Positions 3,200 to 63,690 of a stretch of DNA of 64,000 bases are shown one piece after another (within the stretch, counting starts at the first letter, position 1; every line of letters begins with the position of its first letter). The position numbers were made by a program, and so were the translations under genes. The notes beneath the pieces were generated by a model. It saw nothing but the letters and a program-made list of their open reading frames with translations. It did not search any database and was not told where the DNA came from. Source of the DNA: a virus. Where the stretch lies: positions 170,736 to 234,735 of the IMG/VR virus record IMGVR_UViG_3300046005_000547. One strand, 5' to 3'.

Positions 3200-3862
3200 T
3201 TATTTGTGTGCAATTAAAACAAATCTTCTACCTTTACTGTTTGGTAACCAAATCTTATCGTCAGCCAAATTCTTTGTATCATAATTGATTACTTTACCAG
3301 AATCATCCTTTATGAAATCATGTTCTATTGTATCATAAACAAATACATTTAATGAAGGAACTATTGATAACTTCTTCCATAATCTTTTACCGCCTTCATA
3401 TTGAACGTTATCGGAAACAATAACGTATCCATCATCCATCAATGCTTGGTATATAGAAGAAGCTAATCCAAGTCCTTCTAAGTTGGGAACTGTTGCTACA
3501 ATTGATATTTGTAATTGTTTCTTATGTTCCAATTCCGCTGGTAAATTATCAATCAAAGGGTGTTTAAAATGAACTAGACACGCAACATAATATATTTTAG
3601 CTCCGTCTTCTTGCCGTATAGTTGGTATATAAACGCCAGCCATCCCTTTTGTTTTTGTCAATAAAATTGTATAATCACCAATAACACTCGAATTTTTTAC
3701 AGTTTTAATCAAATCAAATCTTCTTTGAACTGTTTCATCTGTTATATATCTACCAGCATCACCTTCGGCCGATATTGTAATCCAAGCAGACTGGTCTTTC
3801 GTTTCTGGTCTATGTTCAGGCATTTCTAATATCATCTTTCTAATTTCTGCAAATGTTTTCAT
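3200..3862 (-). CDS. Acetyltransferase-like head-internal protein with CTS-like N-terminus
   Basis: 220 residues, start supported by AAGGGG ten bases upstream. The N-terminus MKTFAEIRKMILEMPE resembles the T4 capsid-targeting sequence MKTYQEFIAE, with ILE as a prohead-protease-like (I/L)xE site. The C-terminal half (about 100-190) looks like a GNAT fold: QISIVATVPNLEGLGLASSI (V-loop-like) followed by DGYVIVSDN.QYEGGKRLWKKL, as in acetyltransferases encoded near phage head genes. Two paralogues lie at 18634-19224 and 42203-42808. I infer packaging in the capsid and injection with DNA; the acetylation substrate is unknown. Confidence 0.55.
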   Translation of the reverse strand: MKTFAEIRKMILEMPEHRPETKDQSAWITISAEGDAGRYITDETVQRRFDLIKTVKNSSVIGDYTILLTKTKGMAGVYIPTIRQEDGAKIYYVACLVHFKHPLIDNLPAELEHKKQLQISIVATVPNLEGLGLASSIYQALMDDGYVIVSDNVQYEGGKRLWKKLSIVPSLNVFVYDTIEHDFIKDDSGKVINYDTKNLADDKIWLPNSKGRRFVLIAHK

Positions 3863-3881
3863 GTTATATTTCCCCTTTAAA

Positions 3882-3905
3882 TTTTATTATAGATTTATTT
3901 AATCC
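3882..3905 (-). promoter_or_regulatory. Possible promoter of the CTS acetyltransferase-like gene
   Basis: On the - strand a TATAAT hexamer (near 3885-3890) lies upstream of the 3862 start, with a CTTTTTGGA stretch one spacer upstream in the tail of the terminator. It resembles the phage promoter set (CTTTCGA or CTTTGGA, then TATAAT). Confidence 0.35.
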
Positions 3906-3945
3906 AAAAAGAAACCCGTTAGAGCATTCAATCTCTAACGGGTTT
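3905..3945 (-). terminator. Rho-independent terminator
   Basis: A perfect 13-bp stem (AAACCCGTTAGAG / CTCTAACGGGTTT) with a T-rich tail on the - strand, just downstream of the zinc-ribbon gene and the nrd operon. Confidence 0.85.
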
Positions 3946-3956
3946 GGTATCACAAT

Positions 3957-4109
3957 CTATTCTTCATCTTCTTCAATATCATCCAATAACGGCGTTCCGC
4001 AAATTGGACAACTTCTAATGTCATTTTCCGAAAAATCCTTTGATTTAATTGTAATAGATCCTTGCGCATCACAATGGTCGCAAGCGAAGTTCTTTTTTAC
4101 TGATGCCAT
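3957..4109 (-). CDS. Small zinc-ribbon protein
   Basis: 50 residues, start preceded by AAAGGAATTAAA. It has two CxxC knuckles, CDHC at 10-13 and CPIC at 34-37, and an acidic C-terminus (DDIEEDEE). It sits between the nrd operon and a terminator. Zinc ribbons of this size often bind nucleic acid or a polymerase; function unknown. Confidence 0.7.
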   Translation of the reverse strand: MASVKKNFACDHCDAQGSITIKSKDFSENDIRSCPICGTPLLDDIEEDEE

Positions 4110-4139
4110 TTTAATTCCTTTTAATGTGTTATTGTATAT

Positions 4140-4262
4140 TCATTTAATTGTATTTAATATGAAATTATTCATGTCATTAGATAATTCTTCTATCTTTTTG
4201 AATAATAAATTTTTATTTTTAATTTCAAAATCCCAGATTACCAATACATTATAACCAGACAT
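4140..4262 (-). CDS. Short ORF after nrdB, possible nuclease remnant
   Basis: 40 residues, starting inside the last codons of nrdB (GGGGTG before ATG). The stretch GYNVLVIWDFEIKN resembles the last conserved strand of Vsr/DUF723-like phage homing nucleases (GY.V..IWE.D). No upstream catalytic part exists, so this may be the tail left by an endonuclease once inserted next to nrdB. It could also be a chance ORF. Confidence 0.4.
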   Translation of the reverse strand: MSGYNVLVIWDFEIKNKNLLFKKIEELSNDMNNFILNTIK

Positions 4263-5217
4263 CACCCCAAGAACCAGTTAATGCACCTTTTGAATAATCC
4301 GTAATTGTAGTTTCAAAGAAATTTCCATGAATTGGCGCATTAATCATTTCGTCAATCCAATTCAATGGGTTTTTCTTAATTTTATAAATTCCTTTCAATC
4401 CCATGGAAATCAATCTTCTATCGCAAAGGTATCTAATGTATTGTTTAATATCACCTGCGGATAAATTTTCCATGTCACCCATACTGAACGACAAATCAAT
4501 GAATTTGTCTTCTAGTTCAACCATTTTTTCTGCGATAGAATATAATTCGGATTTTAATTTATCGTTCCAGATATGTCTATTTTCTTCGATATGAGTTCTA
4601 AACAGTTTAATCATACCTTCGCAATGCATTGATTCATCAACTAAACTCCAAGAAACTAATTGACCCATACCTTTCAATTTACCATGTCTAGGAAAATTTA
4701 ATAACATAGCAAATGATGAGAATAATTGTAATCCTTCTGTGAATGCGCTGAATACTGCAATTTGCTGAGCAATAGTGGTGTTATCCATATGAGTGAATCT
4801 ATCAACATAATCATGTTTTTCTTTCATCTCAGAATATTCATTAAATTCGTTGTATATTCTTTCTGGCATCCCAAGAGTTTCAATTAAATGCGAATATGCA
4901 GCAATATGAATTGATTCTCTTGCAGCAAATCCTAATAACATCATTCTTATTTCTGGTTGAGGGAATGTTGGTAAATAATTTTTAACATATCCTCCAGCAA
5001 CATCGATATCACCTTGAGTGAAGAATCTAAACAAATTTGTTAAAAAATGTTTGCTGGATTCATCTAATTTCGACCAATCTTTAATATCGTCTTGCATAGA
5101 CACTTCAGTGAACATCCAATGACTTTGTTCATGAGTCAACCAATAATCATACGCCCATCCATATCTATGCGGTTTGTAATATGGTCTTTCGTCAGTTAAT
5201 TTTAAATTTTTACTCAT
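4249..5217 (-). CDS. nrdB: Ribonucleotide reductase class Ia beta subunit
   Basis: 322 residues from ATG 5217, chosen because AAGGGT precedes it; the frame runs further upstream into nrdA. It holds the diiron/tyrosyl-radical protein hallmarks: E.SHWMFTEVSMQDD, FF.QGDIDVAGGY, ARESIHIAAYSHL (E/H ligands) and SLVDESMHCEGM. The C-terminus ...SWGDVWL is hydrophobic, as needed for docking into NrdA. It supplies the radical for NDP reduction to dNDP in the cytoplasm. It directly follows nrdA, the stop of nrdA (5225) lying 8 bases upstream, so both are co-transcribed. Confidence 0.95.
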   Translation of the reverse strand: MSKNLKLTDERPYYKPHRYGWAYDYWLTHEQSHWMFTEVSMQDDIKDWSKLDESSKHFLTNLFRFFTQGDIDVAGGYVKNYLPTFPQPEIRMMLLGFAARESIHIAAYSHLIETLGMPERIYNEFNEYSEMKEKHDYVDRFTHMDNTTIAQQIAVFSAFTEGLQLFSSFAMLLNFPRHGKLKGMGQLVSWSLVDESMHCEGMIKLFRTHIEENRHIWNDKLKSELYSIAEKMVELEDKFIDLSFSMGDMENLSAGDIKQYIRYLCDRRLISMGLKGIYKIKKNPLNWIDEMINAPIHGNFFETTITDYSKGALTGSWGDVWL

Positions 5218-5224
5218 TTTATAG

Positions 5225-7021
5225 TTACCCTTCACAAGCCAAACAAGAATTTCCCTCGGCAACAGACATCATATTCATTTCTTCAATAATATGTCGTTGA
5301 ATTTGTTGTGACACTTTATCAGCCTTTCCGACTTTATTAGATCTCAAATAATACAAACTTTTTAATCCGCGTTTCCACGCACTAAAATGGACGGCATGTA
5401 AGTATTTTATATGTGCATCTGGTCTGAAAAATACATTTATAGATTGTCCTTGGTCAATAATAGCTGCTCTATCCGCAGCTAAATCGATAATCCATCTTTG
5501 GTCAATCTCCATAGACGTTTTAAACACATCCTTTTCATCTTGAGATAAAATATCTAAATGTTGAACAGATCCTTCATTTGCAATAACGCTTTTCCAAATA
5601 TCGTCTAATTTTGATTCTGTTAATGATTTATTAGATAATAATTTTTCTAATTGTTTGTTTTTGTAAATTGAAAATCCTGAAAGTGTATCTTGTCTATATG
5701 CATTTGCTCTAAATGGTTCAACACTTGGTGATGTATTTCCGACCAAAATAGACGTAGATGCATTAGGTGCGATTGCCTGCATATGAGCAAATCTTTTACC
5801 ATAACCAATTCCATCTGGACATTCCCCTCGTTCTAATGCCAATTCAGAATTACACTTATCTAAATGAACTTTGATACTTTTAAAGATACGCAAATTTGTA
5901 CTTTTTGCTAATGCGCATTCGAATGGTATATTTTTTTGTTGAAAATAATCGTGTAATCCTAATACACCTATACCAATAGAACGTTCATTCTTTGCGGATT
6001 CAACTGCTCTACGTAATTCTGGCGGAGCATTTTCGATAAAATGGGTTAAAACATTATCCAACATTTCGGCAACATCTCTATGAAATTGATAATCATCTTT
6101 CCATTCATCATAATAATTTAAGTTTAATGACGATAAACAACAAACCGCAGTTCTATCTTCAGAAGTTGCGAGTTCTACCTCTACGCAGAGATTCGAGCCA
6201 TTGATTTTTAAGCCTTTTTTTCTTTGAAATTCTGGTAATGCTCTATTTGCCGTATCAATAAAATGCAAATATGGTTCACCGCGTTGAACTCTAGTTTCAA
6301 TCAATAATTGCCAAACTTCTTTTGCCGAAACAGTTTGTGTTATTTCTTTGGTTGCTGGATCTATTAAATTCCAAGAATCGTCAAAATCTGGTTCAATCAT
6401 ACATTTTTCAATGATTTGCATAAAATCATCTGTTATATTTACACCATGATTCAAATTTGGACATCGGATATTTGGATCTCCAGTCGCCTTTCTCATTTCA
6501 ATAAATGGTATAATTTCAGGATGAGAAATATCCAAGAATGCCGCGTAACTACCTCTTCGAGTAGAACCTTGTTTATACGCTAAAGAAGACGCATCATATG
6601 TTTTTAAATGCGGGATGATTCCAGTTGATTTATCGCCAGCAGAACGAATATCCATATGGATACCAACACCCCCACCTAACATGGATAATGTATTGACTTC
6701 AGATAATGTATCAATAAGGCCCTTTGATGTATCTGGTAAGTAAGACAAAAAACAAGAAATTGGTAATCCTTTTTTATTTCTACCGAATGATAAAATCGGA
6801 GTCGAATAACTCAACCAATGCTTAGATGCATAATCATATAATCTTTGTGAATGTTCTTTATTAGTACCAAACGCATTAGAAACATATGCATATCTTTGCT
6901 GAGGTGATGATTCATCAGACATCATGTACGATTCCTTAAATCGTTTATGTCCTAATTCATCTATCAAATTGTCTCGCGAATAATCAACATTTATTCCTAA
7001 ATACAATTCCGTTATACTCAT
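5225..7021 (-). CDS. nrdA: Ribonucleotide reductase class Ia alpha subunit
   Basis: 598 residues with AAGGAAATTAT before ATG. The ten-stranded barrel signatures are present: PISCFLSYLPD (redox Cys), SMLGGGVGIHMDIR, YKQGSTRRGSYAAFLD, NGSNLCVEVELAT (thiyl-radical NLC motif), AVCCLSSLNL (second redox Cys), PNASTSILVGNTSPSVEP and a C-terminal CLACEG tail for thioredoxin/glutaredoxin reduction. It is shorter than bacterial NrdA (~760) because an N-terminal ATP cone is absent, so dATP inhibition is probably lost, as in other phage enzymes. It forms the active complex with NrdB and feeds DNA replication. Confidence 0.95.
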   Translation of the reverse strand: MSITELYLGINVDYSRDNLIDELGHKRFKESYMMSDESSPQQRYAYVSNAFGTNKEHSQRLYDYASKHWLSYSTPILSFGRNKKGLPISCFLSYLPDTSKGLIDTLSEVNTLSMLGGGVGIHMDIRSAGDKSTGIIPHLKTYDASSLAYKQGSTRRGSYAAFLDISHPEIIPFIEMRKATGDPNIRCPNLNHGVNITDDFMQIIEKCMIEPDFDDSWNLIDPATKEITQTVSAKEVWQLLIETRVQRGEPYLHFIDTANRALPEFQRKKGLKINGSNLCVEVELATSEDRTAVCCLSSLNLNYYDEWKDDYQFHRDVAEMLDNVLTHFIENAPPELRRAVESAKNERSIGIGVLGLHDYFQQKNIPFECALAKSTNLRIFKSIKVHLDKCNSELALERGECPDGIGYGKRFAHMQAIAPNASTSILVGNTSPSVEPFRANAYRQDTLSGFSIYKNKQLEKLLSNKSLTESKLDDIWKSVIANEGSVQHLDILSQDEKDVFKTSMEIDQRWIIDLAADRAAIIDQGQSINVFFRPDAHIKYLHAVHFSAWKRGLKSLYYLRSNKVGKADKVSQQIQRHIIEEMNMMSVAEGNSCLACEG

Positions 7022-7030
7022 ATAATTTCC

Positions 7031-7240
7031 TTATGGTTTTTCTTTCAAGATAAAAACACCATCTGCCGCGCAGGTCATATATTCATTCATGATATAATCT
7101 TCACAATTGAATACAGTTGCCAAAGATGGAACAATTTTACATATTTCTTGAAATGATGGTTTATGATTGAATTCTGTAATGATTTCAGTTTTAAAATCAT
7201 TACCAGATTCGTTATAGATTTTATGTAATTGATACGTCAT
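7031..7240 (-). CDS. Small unknown protein between thyX and nrdA
   Basis: 69 residues, mixed alpha/beta, no motif that I recognise. It sits tightly inside the nucleotide-metabolism operon (9 bases from nrdA on one side, 8 from thyX on the other), so a role tied to dNTP supply is possible but unproven. Confidence 0.55.
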   Translation of the reverse strand: MTYQLHKIYNESGNDFKTEIITEFNHKPSFQEICKIVPSLATVFNCEDYIMNEYMTCAADGVFILKEKP

Positions 7241-7248
7241 GATATAAT

Positions 7249-7830: not shown

Positions 7831-7837
7831 ATTTCCC

Positions 7838-12688: not shown

Positions 12689-13621
12689 CTAACGATGCGC
12701 AGATAATCTCGCAGATTCAATTTTCTTGATTTTTGGTAACAATTTATTTGCCAATTTTGTGATAGTTGCTCGTTTCTTCTGAACCATCTTTTCCAATCTT
12801 TCTTTTTCAGGAATCGATAATGTATTCAGAGGTTTCTTAGCCATTTTTGTTTTAAACGCAATAATGGCAGCATGTCTTGCTCTGGAAGCAATTTTAGCTG
12901 GAGATGATTTTGTATGTAATGCCAATTTCATTTTAGCGGTTCGTTTCGATTGAGATTGATGAAATTTAACAGCCATTTTCAATCGAGCCATTCTACTTAA
13001 CATTTCATCAAGACGTTCCACAGATTCATTAGTTGGTACATAAGGATCTACAATACCTGGATGAATATACCCCATATGATTATCTTCATCATCAACAATA
13101 TGTAATTCATCGTCGTCATATACATCCATACCAATTAAATCTTCTAAATCTCCGATACTGTCGTAAATATCATCAACAACATCATCGTTAATTCCAATTA
13201 AATTCCCGAAAATATCTTCTGTTGTTGTATCGTCTTCTAAATCATATTCTAATTCTTCAACTTTACCGTCATTGTCGATATCTCCATCAATCTTACCATC
13301 TTTATTCTTATCTTGTAAATGATCTGGAATATCATCATCATTGAAATCTGTATAAGATTTTCTTGGTACATTATATAATGAATCCATTGTACCACTAGAT
13401 GTGGCTTCATTTACTCGTTTTCTTAATTCTTTGAATGTTTGCATTGGTTTAACCGATTCTGATACTGTTGAAATAATGACATTCGATGCCGTCTTTTTAA
13501 GAGCATCGGGGATTGTCTTGTCGTCTTTTAATCTTACCATCATTTTCTTCTTAAAATCTTTATCTTTTGGATTTAAGTCAAATGTATCGGCAAGCATCTG
13601 TAATAATTGTTCGTCTTTCAT
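12689..13621 (-). CDS. Prohead core-like protein with internal CTS and EF-hand-like acidic region
   Basis: 310 residues. Residues 60-76 (MQTFKELRKRVNEATSS) match the CTS-like peptide, here internal, with VNE followed by Ala as a prohead-protease-type site. Residues ~90-115 carry Ca-binding-like repeats (DFNDDDIPDHLQDKNKDG, DGDIDNDGKVEE). The C-terminal ~100 residues are very basic and helical (KMAVKFHQSQSKRTAKMKLAL, RARHAAIIAFKTKM), ending KRATITKLANKLLPKIKKIE, a pattern found in phage core or DNA-binding head proteins. The acidic middle and basic end suggest a processed scaffold or DNA-associated internal protein. Inference only. Confidence 0.55.
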   Translation of the reverse strand: MKDEQLLQMLADTFDLNPKDKDFKKKMMVRLKDDKTIPDALKKTASNVIISTVSESVKPMQTFKELRKRVNEATSSGTMDSLYNVPRKSYTDFNDDDIPDHLQDKNKDGKIDGDIDNDGKVEELEYDLEDDTTTEDIFGNLIGINDDVVDDIYDSIGDLEDLIGMDVYDDDELHIVDDEDNHMGYIHPGIVDPYVPTNESVERLDEMLSRMARLKMAVKFHQSQSKRTAKMKLALHTKSSPAKIASRARHAAIIAFKTKMAKKPLNTLSIPEKERLEKMVQKKRATITKLANKLLPKIKKIESARLSAHR

Positions 13622-17073: not shown

Positions 17074-18540
17074 TCATGAAATTTTGTAGAACACAGAACT
17101 AAAATGATTTTGTTTCTTAGAGGATAAACATAACATCTTTAATGTTTCTCTCATGTTAGTTTGTTCTAAACAATATAAGAAATGTAATAACACAAGACAT
17201 CTTTTAATTGTATATTGATTATCAGGTTCTTCAGTTTCCAACGTTTGAATGTCAATGAATACAAATTTATCGTTCTTTACATAATCAACAAATCCTGAAT
17301 ACTTTGAATCAATCGAATCCAATGTTTTCAATACATTAGATTCAGGAACTAATTGATAATCAACGTAATCCTTGAATTCAGGAATAATGAAATCAGTCAA
17401 TTTGTTAATCAATGCCTTAGAACTGCTACCGTCCCAATTAGATTTGTTGAAATCGGCAGAACCTTGACAATATACATTCAGGTCGTTACTCTTACCTCTT
17501 GGTGCCAATCTGAACATGTATTCGTAATCTTTACCAAATTCTTCCATGATACAATACATATTGATGTAAGATAACATATCATTGAATTTGAAAATCTTTA
17601 ATGGTCTATCATACCATAAATTATCAACATAATTGTAATCAACTTCGACTTTCTCTACCTTAGCAAATTCATTCAATGTTGATTCAGAAACTAATCCTGT
17701 TGTTGGAGCAATGACTTTCTTCAGGGAGAAACCAATCAATTGTCTTGTGTCAAACAGATGTTTAATGGTATCATTCAGGTCATATACATCTGCTCGTCCT
17801 GTTTCAATTCTGTATAGAACTTCCGAGAGGGTATCAATGACATTTTGTTTATGATGTTTGTTGATTGCCCATACATCAGATGGATTCCAATTATCTTTCG
17901 AGTCTGGTAGATATTTGGATTGAGTCATTGTAGTCAGAATTGGTAATTTATTCTTATCGGAATCTCTATAGAATTCATAAGAATGAATATCAATCACTCT
18001 ACTGACAGCATTATATGTTTCTTTGAATGATAAGAACCATGTGTCGTCAAATTCAAACCCGATTGTCTTATTGATTTGAGATTTGGTAGGATATTCAGGA
18101 AATGAGTTTAAAATGTAAGTGATAGCTTCTTCATGTTGATATGAACTTGGTCTATTATTTACAGTTTCATTACCATCTTCATCAACCACTCTTTTGAATC
18201 CACCTCCAGATTTATAGAATGTAAATGATACTCCACCGGTATGGAATTTAATGGCATTCTTGTCTTCTGAGATATGTTCAATACCAATATGCGAGATAGC
18301 ATCATACATTCGTTTGATGGATTGAAAATCATCTACAATGGAGAAATGGATGTTGTTTGTGATTTTATTATCGATTATCTTTAGATGCAATTTAGATGCA
18401 TAAGGTTGTAATGCATTCAACAATGTATTTATATGAGAATTGTTTTGAAATTGTTGACGTATTACTTCGAACGCAGATTTACCTAATCTATAATGGGTTG
18501 CTTCCTGTATTGTGTTGTTATACTGTTTAAAAGATAGCAT
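17074..18540 (-). CDS. Putative head-internal protein with CTS-like N-terminus
   Basis: 488 residues, start with AAGGAATATAA. The N-terminus MLSFKQYNNTIQEATHYR has the CTS-like form and an IQE-Ala cleavage-like site at residues 11-14. The body has WNPSDVWAINKHHKQN and RQLIGFSLKKV, a W.P.D.W ... LIG.SLKK pattern I have seen in large uncharacterised phage virion proteins. No enzyme motif is evident. It stands alone between two terminators, consistent with separately timed expression. Packaging and injection are inferred from the N-terminus. Confidence 0.5.
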   Translation of the reverse strand: MLSFKQYNNTIQEATHYRLGKSAFEVIRQQFQNNSHINTLLNALQPYASKLHLKIIDNKITNNIHFSIVDDFQSIKRMYDAISHIGIEHISEDKNAIKFHTGGVSFTFYKSGGGFKRVVDEDGNETVNNRPSSYQHEEAITYILNSFPEYPTKSQINKTIGFEFDDTWFLSFKETYNAVSRVIDIHSYEFYRDSDKNKLPILTTMTQSKYLPDSKDNWNPSDVWAINKHHKQNVIDTLSEVLYRIETGRADVYDLNDTIKHLFDTRQLIGFSLKKVIAPTTGLVSESTLNEFAKVEKVEVDYNYVDNLWYDRPLKIFKFNDMLSYINMYCIMEEFGKDYEYMFRLAPRGKSNDLNVYCQGSADFNKSNWDGSSSKALINKLTDFIIPEFKDYVDYQLVPESNVLKTLDSIDSKYSGFVDYVKNDKFVFIDIQTLETEEPDNQYTIKRCLVLLHFLYCLEQTNMRETLKMLCLSSKKQNHFSSVFYKIS

Positions 18541-28767: not shown

Positions 28768-30138
28768 TTAAAAGAATTCATCCAATGATGTAGATTCAAA
28801 TTCATCTTTAAGGTCTTGATGATATTCATCAATCCATTGTTGCCCTTTCTCATGTTCTAATAAGAAATCGTACCATTCTTTCGATGTCCACATTTTTTGG
28901 AAAACGCCGTTCCAAAGTGGGCGCCATAATGGATGCGTCTCATCTTTACGTCTGGTGTCAACAAACAAACGTCTATAATCTTCATATTCCTTTGAACCCA
29001 GACCCAACATGTCTTCTCTGAAATAAGCAATAACAGAAATACGTTCACCACCTTCTTCGGTTTGAATGAATTCAGTGTTTCCATGTAAAATTTCATGATT
29101 ATTGATTAAACATAAATCTCTTGGTCTAATGTTAACTGCAATTCTATATGCAGGAAACACTAGATAACAACCTTCATAATTCTCATTTTTAGATAACACC
29201 AATAGATTTGAGAACCCTGATGTCAAATCACCGGCATCAAAATGATAATGCGTACGAAACGATTTATTTACAGTCACTGTTGTAAATACGGTTTCGGGAA
29301 TCAAAAATGCTGGATCCATTTTGTCGGCAGCTGCTCTCTGGTTACCCCATCTCCAAGGTAATAATTCCTTGAATCCTCCATTCAAACGTTTGAAAAATGG
29401 AAATGATAATTTGAATTTATCAAAATGATGGTCGGTGTATCCGGTTGCTCTACCATAAGGGATTCGTGGGTATCTTGAATACCATCCAGCAATACCAGAA
29501 TATGCTGGAGCAGCATAAACTGTATTAGACACCCAATTTTTCATTACAAATAATGCTCGTTCTTTGGCATCTTCTTGGTCCATGGATTCTAATTCTGAAA
29601 CCAATTCATCAAATTTAAAATTGTCTGGAGTTTTATTAGTCAACCATACAGAAGTTCTTAAACCGTTGTTAGATGAATTATCTTGTTGTTTGAGTTGTTC
29701 TAATGGATCCGAACCGTCTAATGTACTTGTTCTATCAATAAAGTATTCTAAAATATCATGTTGACGTTTAGTGAATCGTTCGCGTCGTTCATTATCTGTT
29801 ATTTCTTCTAACATACCAGCAGCAAGTCCGCGATTGTTAGATAATACAGCAGCATCTCTTAATCCGCCGTACGCTCCATCGTGTTCTTCAATAGTGAAAA
29901 ATCCTTTACGATATTTAAATGCGATACGCCGTTCATCAGAACCTTTATCGCATGAATTACATTCAGATACACAAGTTGCTTTGGTTGATAAATCGCATAA
30001 TGGTTCCATGTATACATCAACGTCTTCGTCGATATCTCCCCCAGGTCCAATTAAAATATCATAATGAGATCTATCTGCACCATGACCCAATAGGTGGTCT
30101 ACGTTATGTTTTTCTTTTGCTACAATAATTCTTGCCAT
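28768..30138 (-). CDS. TET/JBP-like 2-oxoglutarate/Fe(II) dioxygenase, copy 1
   Basis: 456 residues. A conserved N-terminal region has CDLSTKATCVSECNSCDKG, RIAFKYRKGFFT and LRDAAVLSNNRGLAAG. The double-stranded beta-helix core shows iron ligands H299-F-D301 (in HYHFDAGDL) and distal H352 (in EILHGN), with R366 for 2-oxoglutarate (GERISVIAYF). In phages this family oxidises the 5-methyl group of thymine (or 5-methylcytosine), giving 5-hydroxymethyluracil as the entry point of hypermodification. Paralogue at 32634-33995. Substrate not proven. Confidence 0.8.
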   Translation of the reverse strand: MARIIVAKEKHNVDHLLGHGADRSHYDILIGPGGDIDEDVDVYMEPLCDLSTKATCVSECNSCDKGSDERRIAFKYRKGFFTIEEHDGAYGGLRDAAVLSNNRGLAAGMLEEITDNERRERFTKRQHDILEYFIDRTSTLDGSDPLEQLKQQDNSSNNGLRTSVWLTNKTPDNFKFDELVSELESMDQEDAKERALFVMKNWVSNTVYAAPAYSGIAGWYSRYPRIPYGRATGYTDHHFDKFKLSFPFFKRLNGGFKELLPWRWGNQRAAADKMDPAFLIPETVFTTVTVNKSFRTHYHFDAGDLTSGFSNLLVLSKNENYEGCYLVFPAYRIAVNIRPRDLCLINNHEILHGNTEFIQTEEGGERISVIAYFREDMLGLGSKEYEDYRRLFVDTRRKDETHPLWRPLWNGVFQKMWTSKEWYDFLLEHEKGQQWIDEYHQDLKDEFESTSLDEFF

Positions 30139-32633: not shown

Positions 32634-33995
32634 TTATCCCATTAGATCTTCTAATGAAACTGATTCGAATTTGTCTTTTAAATCTTGATGATATTCATCT
32701 AACCATTGTTGTCCTTTATCGTGAATCAATAAGAAATCATACCATTCTTTTGAGTCAAACATATGAGGATAAACCCCATTAAAGAATTCATGCCATTTTG
32801 GATTTGTTTTATCATGTTTAGAATTTTCAACAAATTGTTTTCTATGGTCTTCATATTCTTTAGAACCACATTCTAACAATCCATGTCTAAAATATGAGAT
32901 GACGCTTACTCTATGTGCATCTGGTTCATTTTTGATAATTTTTGTATTACCATGCATGATTTTACTATTATCGACAATTAACAAATCTCCTGGTCTTACA
33001 TTAACAGCAATTCTATATTCAGGGAATACTAGATACCCACCAGAGTAATTATCATTGTTAGATAATACCAACAAATTAGAAATAGCATCCTGTAAATTGG
33101 CTGCATCGAAGTGGCAACCCGTAACCCACGTGTTATTTACAGTTAGAGTGGTGAACACTGTTTCGGGAATCAAAAATGCTGGATCGATTTTATCTGTGGC
33201 ATCTTTTTGTAATTGCCATCTTCTTGGCATTAAATCTCTGAATCCTCGATTTAATGACTGGATAAATGGGTAACATTTTTTAAATTTATCAAAATGATGG
33301 TCTGTATAAGCAGTAGCTCTACCATAAGGTTGACGAGGATATCTACTCCACCACCCACAAACTCCACTCATGGCAGGAACCGCCATTGACGTTCCAGATA
33401 CATGTTTCTTATGGATTCGGATAGCTTCTGCTTGAGCATCTTCTCTACTCATCTTTGATAATGAATCCACCCATGATTCAAAATCAAACATTTCCTCACC
33501 ATACAGAACCCAGACGACACCCTTTGTTACAGTGGTATCATCTTTACGTTTCCGTAATTCAGATAATGTATCGTCATCATATAATGAATCTAACGGATTC
33601 ATGAAGTAATCAAAGATTGAACGTTGGTAATCAGATACATAATTACGTTTGGCATCTTTGTTGTTCGATTTATCGCGTTCTGTATATTTACCAGCAGCAG
33701 TTCCTCTATTGTTTGAAATAGTGGCAGCATCTTTCAATCCTTCTAATGCCATGTCTTGTTCTTCTTTTGTGAAGAAGTTCTTACGAAACTTGAACGCAAC
33801 TCTGAATTCATCAATACCTTTATCGCATGAATGACATTCAGATACACAATCAAGTTTTGTTGATAGGTCACAGACTGGTGGAGTATAAACGTCCGCATCT
33901 GATTCAATTAAAACATCATAAAATGAATCATCAATGAATGTTCCCAGTAAATGTTCACAATCAAGTTTTTCTTTTGCTACAATAATTTGAACCAT
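32634..33995 (-). CDS. TET/JBP-like 2-oxoglutarate/Fe(II) dioxygenase, copy 2
   Basis: 453 residues, paralogous along its length to 28768-30138. It has CDLSTKLDCVSECHSCDKG, LKDAATISNNRGTAAG, the iron motif GCHFDAANL, distal His in KIMHGN and the 2-OG Arg in AHRVSVISYF. All catalytic residues are kept, so both copies look active, perhaps on different substrates or steps (for example two oxidation levels or thymine versus cytosine). Start preceded by AAGAGCAGGATAACAAAT. Confidence 0.8.
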   Translation of the reverse strand: MVQIIVAKEKLDCEHLLGTFIDDSFYDVLIESDADVYTPPVCDLSTKLDCVSECHSCDKGIDEFRVAFKFRKNFFTKEEQDMALEGLKDAATISNNRGTAAGKYTERDKSNNKDAKRNYVSDYQRSIFDYFMNPLDSLYDDDTLSELRKRKDDTTVTKGVVWVLYGEEMFDFESWVDSLSKMSREDAQAEAIRIHKKHVSGTSMAVPAMSGVCGWWSRYPRQPYGRATAYTDHHFDKFKKCYPFIQSLNRGFRDLMPRRWQLQKDATDKIDPAFLIPETVFTTLTVNNTWVTGCHFDAANLQDAISNLLVLSNNDNYSGGYLVFPEYRIAVNVRPGDLLIVDNSKIMHGNTKIIKNEPDAHRVSVISYFRHGLLECGSKEYEDHRKQFVENSKHDKTNPKWHEFFNGVYPHMFDSKEWYDFLLIHDKGQQWLDEYHQDLKDKFESVSLEDLMG

Positions 33996-42202: not shown

Positions 42203-42808
42203 TTACAACAATTTATCTGTAATCAACATACGTTTCATCTTATGTCTATCAGTTTTACCCCAAATATCTTTATTTTTCTTTTTGAACATTTCCCATTCGT
42301 GTAAATTATCAATCTTCTCCAATTCTTTGGTTAAAAAATCAAAATAATATACGTTCAATCCTTTATTAAACGCCTTACCGATACAACGTTCCCAAAATCG
42401 TTTACCATCAAATGTTTGAATAGAATCCGTTAAAATTGTATGGTGTCGTTTCAATAAAATTTCAAAAAACATTTTAGCCGCAACACCTTCGATATAATTG
42501 TAAACTGGATTTATCCAAACTCCAGATTGCCAAACGAAATCTCCAAGTTCTATACAACTACCCAATTTATATGTCATATCGTATGTAATCAATTCTTCTT
42601 CAATATCTAATACAAAGAAATTATCTCTCCATTCGTACATATTTGAATTTGCCGATAAATTAAACGCCAATTTCTTTCTTTGTTCTTTATACAATTCCAG
42701 ATAATTTTCTCTATTTTTATCTGCATCTATTAATTCTTCTGGATCCCAACTTTTCATAATCTTTGGCATTTCCATCAACATTTTATTGTATTCTCCAAAT
42801 CTCAACAT
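42203..42808 (-). CDS. Acetyltransferase-like protein with CTS-like N-terminus
   Basis: 201 residues from ATG 42808 (GGGAATGAAG upstream; MKML two codons earlier is possible). MLRFGEYNKMLMEMPK shows the CTS-like pattern with LME as (L/I)xE. The body has VAAKMFFEILLKRHHTILTDS.QTFDGKRFWER, parallel to the GNAT-like proteins at 3200 and 18634. Inferred to be a second injected acetyltransferase-like protein. Expressed from a CTTTGGA-type promoter. Confidence 0.5.
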   Translation of the reverse strand: MLRFGEYNKMLMEMPKIMKSWDPEELIDADKNRENYLELYKEQRKKLAFNLSANSNMYEWRDNFFVLDIEEELITYDMTYKLGSCIELGDFVWQSGVWINPVYNYIEGVAAKMFFEILLKRHHTILTDSIQTFDGKRFWERCIGKAFNKGLNVYYFDFLTKELEKIDNLHEWEMFKKKNKDIWGKTDRHKMKRMLITDKLL

Positions 42809-42838
42809 CTTCATTCCCGATAAATTAAATTTGTATTC

Positions 42839-46100: not shown

Positions 46101-46430
46101 ATGCATATAACAAGTAAGCCGATAAACGATTTATATAATCATTATAAGAATTCAGCAGCGTCCCGATCTATCCCATTTACATTAACCAAATTGGATTTCC
46201 ACGAATTGTCCTTTCCATTGACATGCCCTATTTTGGGTATGCCGTTGAGATTTAATACAGGAAGAACGATGTCAGATGATTCTTATTCATTGGACAGGAT
46301 AGATTCAAGTTTGGGATATACAAAGGAGAATTGTATAGTGATATCAAATAGAGCAAATATCTTGAAGAGAGATGCTACATTGGATGAACTTCAGAAATTG
46401 TGTAAATTTTATACAGAGTTGTTGAATTAG
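46101..46430 (+). CDS. HNH endonuclease-like small protein
   Basis: 109 residues, rightward. Pattern CPILGMPLRFNTGRTMSDDSY then SLDRIDSSLGYTKENCIVISNRAN (split), a compact HNH-like nuclease family found in phages (C-P-x-L-G ... S-L-D-R-I-D...G-Y...N..V-S..A-N). Orientation opposite to its neighbours and a convergent overlap with the PRTase gene end suggest a recent, mobile insertion. Confidence 0.7.
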   Translation: MHITSKPINDLYNHYKNSAASRSIPFTLTKLDFHELSFPLTCPILGMPLRFNTGRTMSDDSYSLDRIDSSLGYTKENCIVISNRANILKRDATLDELQKLCKFYTELLN

Positions 46431-47215
46431 GTTTTAAAGATGGTTAATCCAAAGATTGTGGAAGTTGAATCTTCATCGTCTAATATGGATTTTAGGTCAA
46501 CAACATCTTTGATTAAGGAATTCAGGGTGGTACCAGAAGCGATAAGGTCATCTAGGACTAATACAGTGGAGTTCCTTAGTTTGCCAATTTTGGGATCGTC
46601 TTTTAATTTGTAGAAGTTTTGGAGGAATTTGGTGTCGCGTTTATTGAAGTCTTTCATTTGGAAAGAGTCTTTATCATTTGCTCGTTTTAGACCATATTCT
46701 AGCGACCTGATGATGCTGGGAGAAATCTTAGGATGATTTTTGTCTATTTCAATTTTAGAGATTTCATTTTTGACATATAATTTTGGGACAAACGAGATAT
46801 GCGGATTCCTTGATTTCAATTCAACAATTAGGTCATCTAGGATGGAGGATGTTGAATCAGGAGTGATGATTACATCTACCAGCTGATGGTCATTAGATTT
46901 GGTTAAGATTTTGTACGAGATATAGATTGCGGTTCTCCTGATGAAATTTGTATAATCATCAGGAGATAGATTTTGTTGTTTCTTTAATTGTTTGATTACA
47001 GAAGTGACATCCACATATTCATCTTTTGTGGTCTTGTAGATAGAATAAATTGGAACGCCATTTACATTGGAACCTTTTGATACATACGGGTCGAACGATT
47101 TAGTCTTACCAAATTTAGTGGATATGCCTTGTTTGTCGGAGTAGTTGAATTGTAGACCAGAGTCAGTTTGTTTGATTGCTTCTAGCAATTCATTGTATTC
47201 TTTAAAAGATAGCAT
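46427..47215 (-). CDS. Phosphoribosyltransferase-like protein with CTS-like N-terminus
   Basis: 262 residues from ATG 47215 (GGAATGAG upstream). It begins MLSFKEYNELLEAIKQTDSG, the best CTS-like peptide of the set, with LLE-Ala as cleavage site. The PRPP loop is STVLVLDDLIASGTTLNSLI (about 222-241), the type I PRTase signature (DD.IASGTT), as in ComF and purine/pyrimidine PRTases. The preceding part contains VIITPDSTSSILDD. Likely binds PRPP and transfers a base or uses it in an injected enzyme role. It is encoded just after a SLOG-family gene. Confidence 0.65.
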   Translation of the reverse strand: MLSFKEYNELLEAIKQTDSGLQFNYSDKQGISTKFGKTKSFDPYVSKGSNVNGVPIYSIYKTTKDEYVDVTSVIKQLKKQQNLSPDDYTNFIRRTAIYISYKILTKSNDHQLVDVIITPDSTSSILDDLIVELKSRNPHISFVPKLYVKNEISKIEIDKNHPKISPSIIRSLEYGLKRANDKDSFQMKDFNKRDTKFLQNFYKLKDDPKIGKLRNSTVLVLDDLIASGTTLNSLIKDVVDLKSILDDEDSTSTIFGLTIFKT

Positions 47216-47549
47216 TCTCATTCCATATGAATAGTTGTTTGTTTTGTTTTTTAGCATGGTCTATTGAATTCTTTGTACCTTTAGATACGCCGTCCCAGAT
47301 GGCAATGACGCAATCTGAATCATCAATGATTTGTTTATTTCTGACAAATCCAGCACCTCTGCCATATTTCTTCCAATCTGGTTTATAGATTGTGGTGGGA
47401 ATGTTATGTTCATTGGCATATTGTTCTGCCATGGAATCAATACCATTTGCCCCACCAGAAACAATATGAGATATTTCATATTGTTTTAATATATTTACAA
47501 CATATTCATAATCTGTGATGTTTCTTGAACCAACAACTGCGAATTTCAT
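47202..47549 (-). CDS. SLOG/DprA-like (YspA/cpYpsA-type) protein
   Basis: 115 residues with the Rossmann-like SLOG fold: MKFAVVGSRNITDYEYV, HIVSGGANGIDSMAEQYA and GFVRNKQIIDDSDCVIAIWDG with SKGTKNSIDHAKK. SLOG proteins bind nucleotides or NAD-derived ligands and appear in defence and DNA uptake systems. Its gene overlaps the CTS-bearing PRTase gene by 14 bases, so the pair may act on one nucleotide substrate. Confidence 0.8.
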   Translation of the reverse strand: MKFAVVGSRNITDYEYVVNILKQYEISHIVSGGANGIDSMAEQYANEHNIPTTIYKPDWKKYGRGAGFVRNKQIIDDSDCVIAIWDGVSKGTKNSIDHAKKQNKQLFIWNENAIF

Positions 47550-59184: not shown

Positions 59185-59229
59185 ATGTTATATGATTGGA
59201 TTGAAATCATATTATGTAAATTTTAAACA

Positions 59230-59361
59230 ATAAAAATCCCAACAGAATGATTAGTTCACGTTGGGATGAATTATAAAGTCGATAAAGAATCTTGAAGTAA
59301 TATAGAAAACAATAAAAGAATATAGAAATGTTATTAAAGGTAATAACTGAAACGTCGACAT
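59230..59361 (-). ncRNA. Putative short RNA F
   Basis: About 130 bases on the - strand from promoter F (CTTTCGA 59390-59396, N17, TATAGT 59367-59372) to a terminator with stem ATCCCAA / TTGGGAT and TTTTTATT. Shares the AAAGAATCTTGAAGTAATAT motif (as + text) with units A and D. Confidence 0.5.
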
Positions 59362-59366
59362 AGTCT

Positions 59367-59396
59367 ACTATACCCGAGTTTCTGACATTTCGAAAG
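59367..59396 (-). promoter_or_regulatory. Repeat-array promoter F
   Basis: CTTTCGA, 17-base spacer, TATAGT, then AGACTATGTCGACG on the - strand; divergent from the ADP-ribosyltransferase gene. Confidence 0.6.
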
Positions 59397-59501
59397 GAGT
59401 TTAAGACGTTGATTATATCAAGCTCGACGTTTCGTGTATTCTTAAGACTCTTTCGATACATTGAATTTACATCTTCGATGTTAACATTTAATCCTACATG
59501 G

Positions 59502-59597
59502 AAATTTGCTGATTTAAGGACGATTCATTATATCCTGTAGAGTTTCCTGTCATACATAATAAAAACATGTTAAATTGTATTATTGAACAAACAAATA
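59502..59597. repeat. R2-related repeat, copy 7 (degenerate)
   Basis: Keeps TTTGCTGATTTAAGG and TATCCTGTAGAGTT but loses the GATTGACA box; runs up to the ADP-ribosyltransferase leader, which includes tandem AAAT repeats (59588-59610). Confidence 0.55.
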
Positions 59598-59629
59598 AAT
59601 AAATAAATAAAATAACAAAAGGATAATCC

Positions 59630-62431
59630 ATGAAAACCTTCACTGACATACGCAAACAAATCAACGAGAACAGTCTTTATACTTCTCAACAAGAGAAAGA
59701 CGACTTCCTGAAAGATAAAAAGAAAATTGTAACTGCATTCTTATACTCTTTCATCGGTAATCTATCTCTTTACAATAAAGACTCTGCCAAAGCAAAACAT
59801 TATTTCTTATCGGATAAGAAATTACAGATTGTCAACATCAATGACGATAACAATGATGCGTCTTTAATTCTGAAAATCATGCATGATGAACATGGATTCA
59901 AGAATACAAACACTGCCAATGAGATGACTAAATTATTGGCAAAATTGAAAGTCTCGGATGTATCATCATTCGATGATGCAATTATCAGAGCATGGTTGTC
60001 GGATCTATCTCCTGCGTTCCATTCCGCTATCCCAACGGATTTGAAAAAGACTGTCGATGATTACATGAATAGTGTCACCAGTTTCGATAGATTGAGTTAC
60101 AAATTGTATAAACATAAGACTGCTTATGGTGACGGAGAGTATCTTGATTTGGCAAAGAAAGTTGGTCGAATCGAAAGACATACACATAAACCGAAAGTCG
60201 TAGTGACTCCAACTGCATCTGCCGTTCCACCTACATTAGCAAATCCTCAGATATTTGTTCCTACCGTTAATACATCGACTGCTGTTGTTACAACTCCACC
60301 GGATGTTATAGATGAACCTATTCAAATTGTTGAGAAAGAACCAGAAGTTAAACAATTCAATCAAGAATTGTATGACAAATTTAAAGTTAAAAATTTATTG
60401 AGTGATGATGAATGGGATGAATTGATTGAGGATAAAGAAGTTTTCGTTAAAATAATGATTGAATCTCCGAAACGATTATATACAACCCAATACCATAAAA
60501 TTAGAAAAGTTATGTTCAAAGAATTATCGGAAGAACAACTCATGGAAATGAAGAAAGTCTCCTGGAATTTAGATGTATTTAAATATGATATCAAAGATTC
60601 AATCATGATTCTGAAAGATAGAAATATGGATTTCGTTAAGATTTTTGGACCTTTACGAGTTGCGCAATATATGTGCGACAAAGATATTTCCGCGGGTAAA
60701 GAAATCATTGATTTTTATACTGAACAAAAGATCTTAATTTCAACTGATAATGGTAATCGTATTGTAAAGGATTTTCCAGAAATCTTAGTGGATGCAGTTA
60801 AATTGACAATCAAAGACATGGGAGTCGATTATGGTAGCTCGATGGCTGTTCATTTAAATCAACAACAAATTGATGAAATTTATGATGTTAATGATAGATT
60901 ACTTGTATTACGAAATGTTGTATTGACTGGTAGATTGATAAAGGATCCAGTTGATTTATTGAAGAAATTCAATTACAATGAAGTTTTAATCAAAGCTGGT
61001 TTAGAAAATACAAGTGTGCCTCATTTCACGCCGTATCTAAATTCAATGAATAAATTGTTCATGGAAGATATGGATAAATGGTATCCATGGGAACGAAAAT
61101 ATAGTTACATTAAACAATTATTCACCAAACCAAATGTAATTGATTATTTCAATGATAAATTTAAAAGAGCATTTACGGATGATGGTGTATTTGAATACTT
61201 CGACGACAAAGAACGATTAGATGGTATTTCATCATCATTGTTTGATTTGTTAGTATCCAATTATAAAACCAAACCGGAACTTGTTGATTCTATCTTCAAT
61301 GATTTTGGTGATAAGATTAAAACAAGAGTCAAAAAGAATTTCAACTCGACATTCAGAGTGATGCATGATTTAAAAGATAGCGCATTACCAATCAAAGAAG
61401 AACTAGATGCCAAATCTATTCAAGCTATCTTGGAATTCAATGACATCGACCTTAGTGTAATTTCTGGCACCAAAATGAAATTCTCTAAGAACAAATCGTT
61501 AAGTCAAACAATCAATGATTTTGTTAAAGATGAATCTGTTACCACTATTGAACCATTGAAAATTGTTGATTTGAAAACATCTGATGCAGATAACAAGAAG
61601 TTATCTCAGAAGATTGTTGATGAAACGCATTCTGGTGGTAAACATGGGGACATCTATCCATTAGTCTTACGTCAATTTGAAGTTCATCTACCAGATGATA
61701 AATTCCAAGAGTTCAAAAAATTGATGATTCAGAATAATTCACATAAAGAGATTGTTCCTGCTTTCCATGGCACTGGTTCTATTGCAGCTAATATGATTCT
61801 TAGATATGGATTTAAAGTGTTACCAGAACAAAGTAATTCTGCTATTGGTATACAAGGTAGAATGTTAGGTGATGGTATTTACTTTGGTACCAATATCGAC
61901 AAAGTATTACAATATGTTGGTAATAAAGGAATGACCAGAAGACTTGGTACAACTGGATATGTATTTGAAATGGAGAACGAACTTGGGGTAAAAGGTAATG
62001 ATTACAAAGAAGCTGGGTTGGGTAATGATAAAATTGCTTCGCCAGAATGGGTTGTATTTGATGCCAACAGACAATTAAAAATTATTAAGGCGTATGAAGT
62101 GAAATTGGTAGATAAATCAGAATTAGATAAATCATTAAATGAATCAGTCAAACCAAGAATGATGTCATTCAAAGAATATGTTGATATCAAGAAGAACAAT
62201 TATACATCATACAATTTCTATGACAGAAATGTAATTACGCCTGATGGCAAAGTAATCAAATCGACTGATGTAACAGACACTACATTTAAGAAAGGTATTA
62301 GAGTTGAAATCAGAGGAAGAATTACATCAGTGATTATTCCAACGAAACAATTAGAATTCAATGATGTATTGAGTTGTTATGATTTACAGGATAAACAATT
62401 AGACAAGTATCTTCGTCTATTGAATAAATAA
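59630..62431 (+). CDS. PARP-like ADP-ribosyltransferase with CTS-like N-terminus
   Basis: 933 residues, start with AAAGGATAATCC. It begins MKTFTDIRKQINENSLY, a capsid-targeting-like peptide with INE as cleavage-like site. Residues ~185-240 are a Pro/Thr/Val-rich linker; ~245-640 are helical and unassigned. The catalytic domain spans ~690-820: H713 in AFHGTG, Y751 in GDGIYFGTNIDKVLQY and E806 in SPEWVVFDANRQLKI, i.e. the H-Y-E triad of PARP-type transferases. Residues 845-858 (MSFKEYVDIKKNN) repeat the CTS-like pattern, suggesting fusion of a second head-targeted segment. By analogy with T4 Alt it may enter the host with the DNA and modify host proteins at once; T4 Alt, however, is of the R-S-E type, so this would be convergent. 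Targets unknown. Confidence 0.78.
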   Translation: MKTFTDIRKQINENSLYTSQQEKDDFLKDKKKIVTAFLYSFIGNLSLYNKDSAKAKHYFLSDKKLQIVNINDDNNDASLILKIMHDEHGFKNTNTANEMTKLLAKLKVSDVSSFDDAIIRAWLSDLSPAFHSAIPTDLKKTVDDYMNSVTSFDRLSYKLYKHKTAYGDGEYLDLAKKVGRIERHTHKPKVVVTPTASAVPPTLANPQIFVPTVNTSTAVVTTPPDVIDEPIQIVEKEPEVKQFNQELYDKFKVKNLLSDDEWDELIEDKEVFVKIMIESPKRLYTTQYHKIRKVMFKELSEEQLMEMKKVSWNLDVFKYDIKDSIMILKDRNMDFVKIFGPLRVAQYMCDKDISAGKEIIDFYTEQKILISTDNGNRIVKDFPEILVDAVKLTIKDMGVDYGSSMAVHLNQQQIDEIYDVNDRLLVLRNVVLTGRLIKDPVDLLKKFNYNEVLIKAGLENTSVPHFTPYLNSMNKLFMEDMDKWYPWERKYSYIKQLFTKPNVIDYFNDKFKRAFTDDGVFEYFDDKERLDGISSSLFDLLVSNYKTKPELVDSIFNDFGDKIKTRVKKNFNSTFRVMHDLKDSALPIKEELDAKSIQAILEFNDIDLSVISGTKMKFSKNKSLSQTINDFVKDESVTTIEPLKIVDLKTSDADNKKLSQKIVDETHSGGKHGDIYPLVLRQFEVHLPDDKFQEFKKLMIQNNSHKEIVPAFHGTGSIAANMILRYGFKVLPEQSNSAIGIQGRMLGDGIYFGTNIDKVLQYVGNKGMTRRLGTTGYVFEMENELGVKGNDYKEAGLGNDKIASPEWVVFDANRQLKIIKAYEVKLVDKSELDKSLNESVKPRMMSFKEYVDIKKNNYTSYNFYDRNVITPDGKVIKSTDVTDTTFKKGIRVEIRGRITSVIIPTKQLEFNDVLSCYDLQDKQLDKYLRLLNK

Positions 62432-62436
62432 TGAAA

Positions 62437-62471
62437 GAATCCCAGACATGTTAAAGTGTCTGGGATTTTTA
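62437..62471 (+). terminator. Terminator of the ADP-ribosyltransferase gene
   Basis: Stem AATCCCAGACA / TGTCTGGGATT followed by TTTTT on +. Confidence 0.85.
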
Positions 62472-62573
62472 ATGGAAATTTGTTGTTTTAAGATGGAATA
62501 ATAACATCCTGTAGAGTTTATTGACATATAATGGAAACGAACAACTAGAGTCCATTAACGAACAAATAATGGA
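62471..62573. repeat. R2 structured repeat, copy 8
   Basis: TTTGTTGTTTTAAGATGG, CATCCTGTAGAGTTTATTG, TTGACATATAATGG and TCCATTAACGAACAAATAAT. Lies between the rightward transferase terminator and the leftward terminator at 62.61 kb, so the transferase gene is bracketed by R2 copies 7 and 8. Confidence 0.7.
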
Positions 62574-62611
62574 TGTTTTAATATTGATTTGTGGTCAGAA
62601 TATTGTATCCA

Positions 62612-62645
62612 ATAAAAATCCCAGTCAACTTCGGTCTTCTGGGAT
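62612..62645 (-). terminator. Rho-independent terminator
   Basis: Stem ATCCCAG / CTGGGAT with a TTTTTATT tail on the - strand after the 62653 gene. Confidence 0.8.
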
Positions 62646-62652
62646 AATATAT

Positions 62653-62955
62653 TTAGATAGATGCGATGGAACCTTTGATGATACCAATACCATGTTTTTC
62701 TAAAAATTCGGAAGGTAAATCTTGTACATGGACGATAATACCTTCTTCTCTATGGTTGAATGCACCTTTACCAGAATTTGGACTATCGACAATTTTAGCA
62801 TCAGTGATAAACAATTTAATGTAATCAGTGCCTTTGGCTGACATTTTGATTTTGAAATTTACAGGGCGACCGTCTGCGTCAACGTAAATTTGTTCACCGC
62901 TTGATGATTTAGCTTCTTCCATAACCATCGCTTGGAATTCTTTAAATGTACTCAT
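62653..62955 (-). CDS. Small head-internal-like protein with CTS
   Basis: 100 residues with AAAAGGAACAAAC before ATG. N-terminus MSTFKEFQAMVMEEAKSSSG has the CTS form, with VMEE-Ala as cleavage-like site, close to T4 IP MKTYQEFIAEA. The remaining ~85 residues are a beta-rich basic domain (FKIKMSAKGTDYIKLFITDA). Size and N-terminus match T4 internal proteins, which are injected; e.g. T4 IPI inhibits a restriction enzyme. Target unknown. Confidence 0.6.
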   Translation of the reverse strand: MSTFKEFQAMVMEEAKSSSGEQIYVDADGRPVNFKIKMSAKGTDYIKLFITDAKIVDSPNSGKGAFNHREEGIIVHVQDLPSEFLEKHGIGIIKGSIASI

Positions 62956-62986
62956 GTTTGTTCCTTTTAATTTTAAATTAGAATCA

Positions 62987-63015
62987 ATTATAATGATTTC
63001 GCATTATATCGAAAG
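62987..63015 (-). promoter_or_regulatory. Phage promoter (CTTTCGA-N16-TATAAT)
   Basis: CTTTCGA at 63009-63015 and TATAAT at 62987-62992 on the - strand, 16-base spacer, before the small CTS protein. Confidence 0.8.
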
Positions 63016-63028
63016 ACTTTAATTATAT

Positions 63029-63223
63029 TTAGTCTTTCCAATCAATCCTTAGATTGTTCTTTGTAAAGAACTTCACAACGGATGAACTAATTACATTTCT
63101 GAAACATTGATGTAATTTAAAATTAGGTATCTTAACGCCGATATTACGAGTTATCCATTCAGATACATCTTTCTCAACGTAATTAATCAATTCTCTAATC
63201 TCATGGTCTTTTAAACCATTCAT
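63029..63223 (-). CDS. Small helical protein
   Basis: 64 residues, helical with basic and acidic faces (DHEIRELINYVEKDVSEW). Overlaps the 2H phosphodiesterase stop by four bases. Function unknown. Confidence 0.55.
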   Translation of the reverse strand: MNGLKDHEIRELINYVEKDVSEWITRNIGVKIPNFKLHQCFRNVISSSVVKFFTKNNLRIDWKD

Positions 63224-63690
63224 GATTCTTTAATCGGTTCAATACTGAATGAATCGAATGTCAATTTATTTCCTTGTAATTGTTTAGTTAATTCTTCGAT
63301 CTTCTGAATATCTTCATCACTTGGTTTATACTTAATCGATAAATGTGGGATGTATTCAGGATAAGAATGTTTGTATCCTAGATTACTCAATACATTATGT
63401 TGAGCAATCAAATCAGGAGATTCTAATGTCAATGTAACGGCACCCCATGTAGAACCTTTCTCACCAAGTAATTTACATCCAGCGATAATACCAACAAATT
63501 TATCATGTAATGATTCAACTTTGTATGCGGGATTAGATACATCATACATTAATGTTACATGTAAATCCTCGATGATGTCTTCAATTCCATTATCATTGAA
63601 GAAACCTCTGATACGTTTGGAATCCTCTTCCGATAATTTAACAGATACGTATCCACCATTATATTGTTTCCATTGTTCAAATGTTAACAT
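63220..63690 (-). CDS. 2H phosphodiesterase, Acb1-like candidate
   Basis: 156 residues with AAAAGGAAAATAA before ATG. Two HxT/S motifs are present: LHVTLMYD (His44) and PHLSIKYK (His about 137), the hallmark of 2H phosphoesterases. The intervening text (STWGAVTLTLESPDLIAQHNVL... YPEYIPHLSI) resembles the T4 57B/Acb1 group, whose members degrade the cyclic nucleotides of CBASS defence; size fits (T4 Acb1 ~150 aa). The N-terminus MLTFEQWKQYNGG is weakly CTS-like but has no (I/L)xE. Other 2H functions (RNA 2',3'-cyclic phosphodiesterase) are possible. Confidence 0.65.
   Translation of the reverse strand: MLTFEQWKQYNGGYVSVKLSEEDSKRIRGFFNDNGIEDIIEDLHVTLMYDVSNPAYKVESLHDKFVGIIAGCKLLGEKGSTWGAVTLTLESPDLIAQHNVLSNLGYKHSYPEYIPHLSIKYKPSDEDIQKIEELTKQLQGNKLTFDSFSIEPIKES

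Follow-up and report, generated by a model that had tools for sequence, protein, structure and literature searches.

The 64,000-nucleotide window analysed here covers the final 64 kb, positions 170736-234735, of a virus record 234,735 bp long (IMG/VR IMGVR_UViG_3300046005_000547), the genome of a T4-like phage that infects bacteria. Several of its genes begin with the same short peptide placed before differing proteins, and we reason that this peptide is very probably a T4-type capsid-targeting sequence (CTS), by which the bodies behind it would be packed into the head, cut and injected.

The sequence-only reading had reported this peptide at the starts of genes 3200, 17074, 42203, 46427, 59630 and 62653 (genes are named by their first coordinate), together with an internal copy in 12689, and all of these copies exist. 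The weak copy that it had placed in 63220 held for the first half of the tag, while the LxE was absent; a second copy in 59630, near the C-terminus (62159, MMSFKEYV), had been missed, as had the other C-terminal tags. The features of the window are as follows (a vertical bar marks the predicted cut):

3200..3862 (-), tagged protein of 220 amino acids, predicted CTS MKTFAEIRKMILE|M at 3824-3862; phrog_7522/3307
3896..3901 (-), TAAATA late-promoter-like element, 39 nt upstream of 3200
12689..13621 (-), 310-amino-acid protein with internal CTS, two predicted cuts flanking the tag: TVSE|SVKP-MQTFKELRKRVNE|A
13406..13444 (-), the internal CTS MQTFKELRKRVNE within 12689
17074..18540 (-), tagged protein of 488 amino acids, phrog_1462 (unknown), CTS MLSFKQYNNTIQE|A at 18502-18540
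42203..42814 (-), tagged protein, relative of 3200, CTS MLRFGEYNKMLME|M at 42770-42808
46427..47257 (-), tagged phosphoribosyltransferase (PRTase)-like protein, CTS MLSFKEYNELLE|A at 47180-47215
59596..59609 (+), repeated TAAATA late-promoter-like element upstream of 59630
59630..62431 (+), PARP-type ADP-ribosyltransferase of 933 amino acids, tags at both ends: MKTFTDIRKQINE|NSLY and SLNE|SVKPRMMSFKEYV
59630..59668 (+), N-terminal CTS MKTFTDIRKQINE in 59630
62135..62143 (+), predicted C-terminal cleavage site LNE|S in 59630
62159..62182 (+), C-terminal CTS copy MMSFKEYV in 59630
62653..62955 (-), 100-amino-acid protein, CTS MSTFKEFQAMVME|E at 62917-62955
63220..63690 (-), Acb1 homolog with half tag MLTFEQWKQ (63664-63690), without LxE

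Among the window tags are MKTFAEIRKMILEM and MSTFKEFQAMVMEEA. As the motif methionine lies 2 (42203) and 14 (46427) codons inside the longest open reading frame (ORF), the true starts of these two genes are probably 42808 and 47215.

Frequency of the tag and its likeness to T4 leaders

Residues 1-7 of the motif were scanned as a DNA pattern over the whole record (235 kb), with the reversed pattern as control. The 15 matches (0 with the reversed pattern) extend the tag beyond the window, adding tagged ORFs at genomic positions 60990, 65248, 72144, 122156, 136900 and 153753, and a C-terminal copy at 142786. Protein-by-protein statistics, which cover ~110 kb of the genome, gave 15 motif methionines where 0.37 were expected from composition, 12 of them coinciding with an ORF start or lying close to one, against an expectation of 0.085. 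Of these 12, 59105 is probably spurious, and another match (40036) was rejected as a short nonsense ORF rather than a real tagged gene.

All listed tags carry F4 plus F, Y, I, L or W at residue 7, and in 11 of the 13 N-terminal ones an I/L/V-x-E follows at residues 10-13, beginning with I or L in 6 of them and with V in 5. This downstream element played no part in finding the matches; in the form [ILVMF]xE at residues 8-14 it was present in 10/14 tagged proteins versus 25/182 other N-termini (p=6e-6). In T4, targeting depends on CTS residues 4 and 7, and processing, at (L/I)xE, on residues 8 and 10 (PMC9026906), so that the proposed likeness to the T4 signal agrees with experimentally defined determinants.

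A slightly wider sister pattern, applied to T4 as a positive control, recovered the internal proteins (IPs) IPI, IPII and IPIII, plus 61.1. The latter gene (NC_000866 18966-19130, 54 amino acids, function not known) begins with MKTFKEFIKE, a CTS-like leader, and may therefore encode an overlooked packaged protein. The wider pattern showed no excess over its reversed control in T7, Staphylococcus phage K, phiKZ, phage G and SPO1, as would not be expected of a motif occurring at random frequency across phage proteins, and a smaller excess in cyanophages and other T4-like contigs, there with classic T4 spacing (MKSFLQYITE, MKTFKQYIGE, MKSFKQFLEE).

The head genes of the phage are also of the T4 type. 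The gp21-like protease that had been predicted to lie outside the window is present (S77 prohead protease, PF03420, E=5.5e-34), as is a gp23-type major capsid protein (PF07068, E=5e-142), with a gp22-like scaffold gene between the two. The closest named major capsid proteins are those of cyanophages (~61% identity). The N-terminal region of the capsid protein contains KFLQE|AAP, and the protease begins with MKLITE, resembling the MELITE of T4 Alt. Two homing-endonuclease-like ORFs (genomic 53408 and 54687) stand immediately 3' of the major capsid gene.

The system thus resembles T4 IPI-III (Mullaney and Black 1996, via PMC9026906; PMC12373910) in its residue-1-7 signal (MKTYQEF/MKTFKEF in T4), in its predicted cut after hydrophobic-x-E, in placing one leader on mostly unrelated bodies, and in its gp21-type protease and T4-type head genes. 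It differs in that at least 12 tagged proteins occur in one genome, in that their bodies are enzyme-like whereas the T4 IPs are small restriction inhibitors, and in its additional internal and C-terminal tag copies.

Bodies behind the tag

The bodies are, as claimed, mostly unrelated: an all-against-all comparison recovered one clear relationship, that of 3200 with 42203, besides which 59630 matched 65248 weakly (E=8e-4). That they are enzymes proved uneven, the PARP-type assignment being solid by motif, the PRTase one weak, and GNAT solid for 60990 alone, outside the window (match above cut-off).

The PF00644 match of 59630 (E=4.1e-5, 23.6 bits) stays below the curated cut-off of 26.7, and its PARP-type call draws its solidity from the H-Y-E residues, which are kept in seven homologs. 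It matched PF00644 and not PF03496 (the family that T4 Alt matches at 4e-38), and sequence search returned no relative with a solved structure. Neither 3200 nor 42203 matched Pfam; a low-confidence model of 3200 (predicted local distance difference test 56) had acetyltransferases as its best fold matches, none of them significant (E>=0.07), and the two proteins are possibly GNAT-like. In the P1-like Salmonella phage SJ46, from which the S77 protease is absent, the 3200 homolog is without the tag; it is located beside tail genes, between bplB and repL. The PRTase identity of 46427 is weakly suggested by PF00156 (E=1.9e-4, below cut-off) and by a phosphoribosyl pyrophosphate (PRPP)-loop-like VLVLDDLIASGTT / DDLIASGTT.

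By sequence, 63220 is a homolog of Acb1 (T4 57B), the anti-CBASS (cyclic-oligonucleotide-based antiphage signalling system) nuclease (PMC9117128), a 2H phosphoesterase: it scores 57.6 bits against PF23474 (cut-off 27) and has the two H-x-(T/S) motifs (LHVTLMY, PHLSIKY). Relative to GAP32 Acb1 it adds an N-terminal extension of ~8 amino acids that looks like the front half of the tag, and this half tag (TFEQW/TFEEW), with no cut site, is kept in two relatives. No family was found for 62653 in Pfam or PHROGs, and no homologs of 17074 in named phages; in viral contigs, 46427 and 3200 had near-identical relatives only.

Outside the window, 72144 encodes 47 amino acids. The tagged ORF at 122156 ends after 19 amino acids, while a body in another frame resembles an intact homolog in the related genome G011; the gene is therefore either frameshifted or an assembly error. 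The T4 IPs target GmrSD enzymes, which have a ParB-like domain; a decoy role is therefore conceivable for 153753, a tagged protein of 108 amino acids with faint ParB-like similarity and an IDGWHR motif. The window also holds two long paralogs (28768-30138 and 32634-33995), which are 2-oxoglutarate-Fe(II) oxygenase-like by motif (HxD ... RPGDL ... HGN).

Internal and C-terminal copies and the tail of T4 Alt

Three tag copies are not N-terminal (12689, 59630, 142786), and each is preceded, at a distance of 2-5 residues, by hydrophobic-x-E. The internal tag of 12689 (TVSE|SVKP-MQTFKEL...VNE|A) is kept in G011 as TVSE|SVTP-MQTFKEFRKRVDE|A. The C-terminal part of 59630 reads SLNE|SVKPR-MMSFKEYV, an arrangement also kept in close relatives, and its C-terminal LxE followed by a tag-like tail recurs in phages of Aeromonas, Stenotrophomonas, Xanthomonas and Pseudomonas:

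PX29 homolog, C-terminal: SMNE|SKTMKFSEMLTE|A
Aeh1 homolog, C-terminal: TLEE|SKTMKFGEMLTE|A
X1 homolog, C-terminal: KLNE|AVGSSFEDYMME|K
pf16 homolog, C-terminal: GINE|STSIVGIKHFTNFINE|A
Moby homolog, C-terminal: TLSE|SFEEHLME|A

The N-terminal sites of 59630 and its homologs are INE|NSLY, LTE|NTLY, LAE|NTLY, LLE|NSLY and LQE|NSFY, and the S77 protease was present in all four of the PARP-type homolog phages examined (PX29, pf16, X1, Moby).

The copy at 142786 (RLTE|NI-MMSFKDY) ends a 321-amino-acid protein (genomic 141862-142827, MCVIACKY...KDRDRN). We rejected its identification as an N-terminal nucleophile (Ntn) hydrolase, for which the motif (Cys2, KDRDR) speaks but which no library supports. 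A tag at the C-terminus would leave a catalytic N-terminal Cys free. In the homolog from Chryseobacterium phage MA9V-2 the sequence is MTSADNNAFINE|CVIAAKK...KNRDR; cleavage behind INE would there uncover the Cys.

T4 Alt, a packaged and injected ADP-ribosyltransferase, is processed at ITE-6 and LTE-619 (PMC5694885), and the literature gives its C-terminal propeptide no settled role. In an alignment of 13 Alt homologs a conserved LxE (as LTE, LQE or LDE) opens this propeptide, which contains an invariant FxxFV (VDFASFV, VSFDSFV, MGFSNFV). Distant homologs carry a fuller FxxF(I/L)...E (ECD7 SFSSFISE|A, KPN6 KFKGFLNE, L220 GFNQFLVE, L214 SFSSFIGQLNE|A), and that of Konradin is without FxxF and retains VINE|A. 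The argument is one of conservation; our shuffling test of FxxF on the Alt tails treated the homologs as independent and is descriptive only.

Like Alt, 59630 is an ADP-ribosyltransferase for which cuts near both ends are predicted (C-terminal SLNE|SV here, ELTE|SV in Alt), and both C-terminal tails then carry FxxF/Y. Its catalytic domain is PARP-type (PF00644, H-Y-E), unlike the Alt fold (PF03496), and the two-end sites would mean that it works like Alt, not that it belongs to the Alt family. On balance we lean, with reserve, towards a CTS that serves not at the N-terminus alone but also as a propeptide inside the protein or at its C-terminus, cut off behind LxE, the Alt C-terminal propeptide (LTE|S, FxxF(I/L/V)) being such a signal; as the PARP-type and Alt tails both combine LxE with an FxxF-type element, two catalytically unrelated ADP-ribosyltransferase families would thus share a delivery tail. 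No paper proposing the Alt C-terminal propeptide as a CTS was found in a search that mostly did not extend to subscription papers.

Alternatives, proposed mechanism and meaning

The tagged proteins might instead be mainly components of the prohead core or of assembly that use the same signal and are consumed or structural, rather than injected effectors. In T4 the core proteins gp22, gp67 and gp68 are cleaved by the protease that also processes the IPs (PMC9026906), 12689 looks core- or DNA-binding-like (acidic middle, basic C-terminal region, several LxE sites), and some tagged proteins, such as 72144, are very small. Several bodies, on the other hand, look enzymatic on host or nucleotide substrates (PARP-type, GNAT, PRTase-like), and the tagged repertoire differs between this genome (G000) and its relative G011, whereas core genes do not vary, which makes this explanation unlikely.

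At the DNA level the tag has some traits of a cassette, in keeping with a module set before unrelated bodies. It is identical in 62653 and genomic 72144 at 40 of 42 nucleotides, with a similar ribosome-site region and nothing alike downstream, and the start-region DNA is near-identical in 62653, 72144 and G011_12298, including the GGAAACAAAC-like ribosome-site region. Duplicated expression cassettes would also leave such DNA behind, the N-terminal similarity then being a by-product with no protein-level role; we hold that to be very improbable, given internal and C-terminal copies distant from any start, key residues that persist while codons and neighbours change, enrichment of the downstream LxE, and a motif that is functional in the T4 IPs (PMC9026906). 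In G011 the bodies are 48-85% identical to their orthologs here and the tag drifts: the 17074 ortholog (85% body identity) matches the tag at 8/14 positions and retains F4, Y7 and (I/L)xE, the 42203 ortholog has MSSFSEYVEVLNE|M, and F4, a bulky residue 7 and hydrophobic-x-E persist in most tags. Chance, for which a few clearly spurious single ORF matches in wider searches and the commonness of short hydrophobic/acidic N-termini in an AT-rich genome could be invoked, has next to no probability for the whole set in view of the counts, the reversed control and the non-T4-like phages given above, and could hold for single members (59105, 63220).

The promoter-like elements before the tagged genes would fit late expression. 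TAAATA stands upstream of 9/15 tagged versus 12/152 other genes (p=4e-6), mostly at 26-41 nt, and also at the gp22-like gene; among genes with an upstream gap (ORFs of at least 75 amino acids) it was found in 6/9 tagged versus 8/61 others (p=0.0014).

Several observations weigh against a T4-type CTS. The late element is missing from several tagged genes, and the first gap-controlled promoter test, which counted small spurious ORFs as neighbours, gave p=0.12. Two tagged proteins (63220, 153753) are without a cleavage site, V at P3 (VME, VSE, VNE) falls outside the L/I-x-E rule reported for T4, and the predicted cut, usually at residues 11-13 versus 8-10 in IPII/IPIII, mostly lies 3 residues further in; such a shift also occurs within the class, the first ITE of T4 IPI being at 17-19.

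We infer packaging and injection with good support from the sequence. We also infer cleavage, the sites of which are themselves visible, and an anti-host role. Late in infection the tagged proteins would be drawn into the prohead core, where the aromatic residues 4 and 7 would do the binding (as judged from T4 IPIII mutants) and the gp21-like protease would cut after (I/L/V)xE, at about residue 10-13. An internal or C-terminal tag with its own preceding LxE would be removed as a C-terminal propeptide. The freed body would remain in the head, be injected with the DNA and act on host defences or physiology, Acb1 and the ADP-ribosyltransferase being the best-named candidates. The tag would hence be a module set before differing bodies (ADP-ribosyltransferase, GNAT, PRTase-like, ParB-like and small unknowns), and as the T4 IPs are known anti-restriction factors (PMC12373910), counter-defence is a likely theme. 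N-terminal packaging signals are likewise present on the injected head proteins of P1 (DarB, PMC9024508) and on those of SPN3US and phiKZ (long propeptides, PMC5694885), and these differ in sequence and length from the tag here. The mechanism is thus known; new are how widely the tag occurs, the enzyme-like bodies that it would deliver and its proposed use at either end of a protein.

A delivery tag that can be read from the sequence would allow the injected arsenal of a phage to be listed from its genome, here an ADP-ribosyltransferase, an acetyltransferase, a PRTase-like protein and possibly Acb1, and not restriction inhibitors only. The C-terminal tag, if true, would let genome scans take in proteins whose N-terminus does not allow an extension, and would bear on why T4 Alt is trimmed at its C-terminus.

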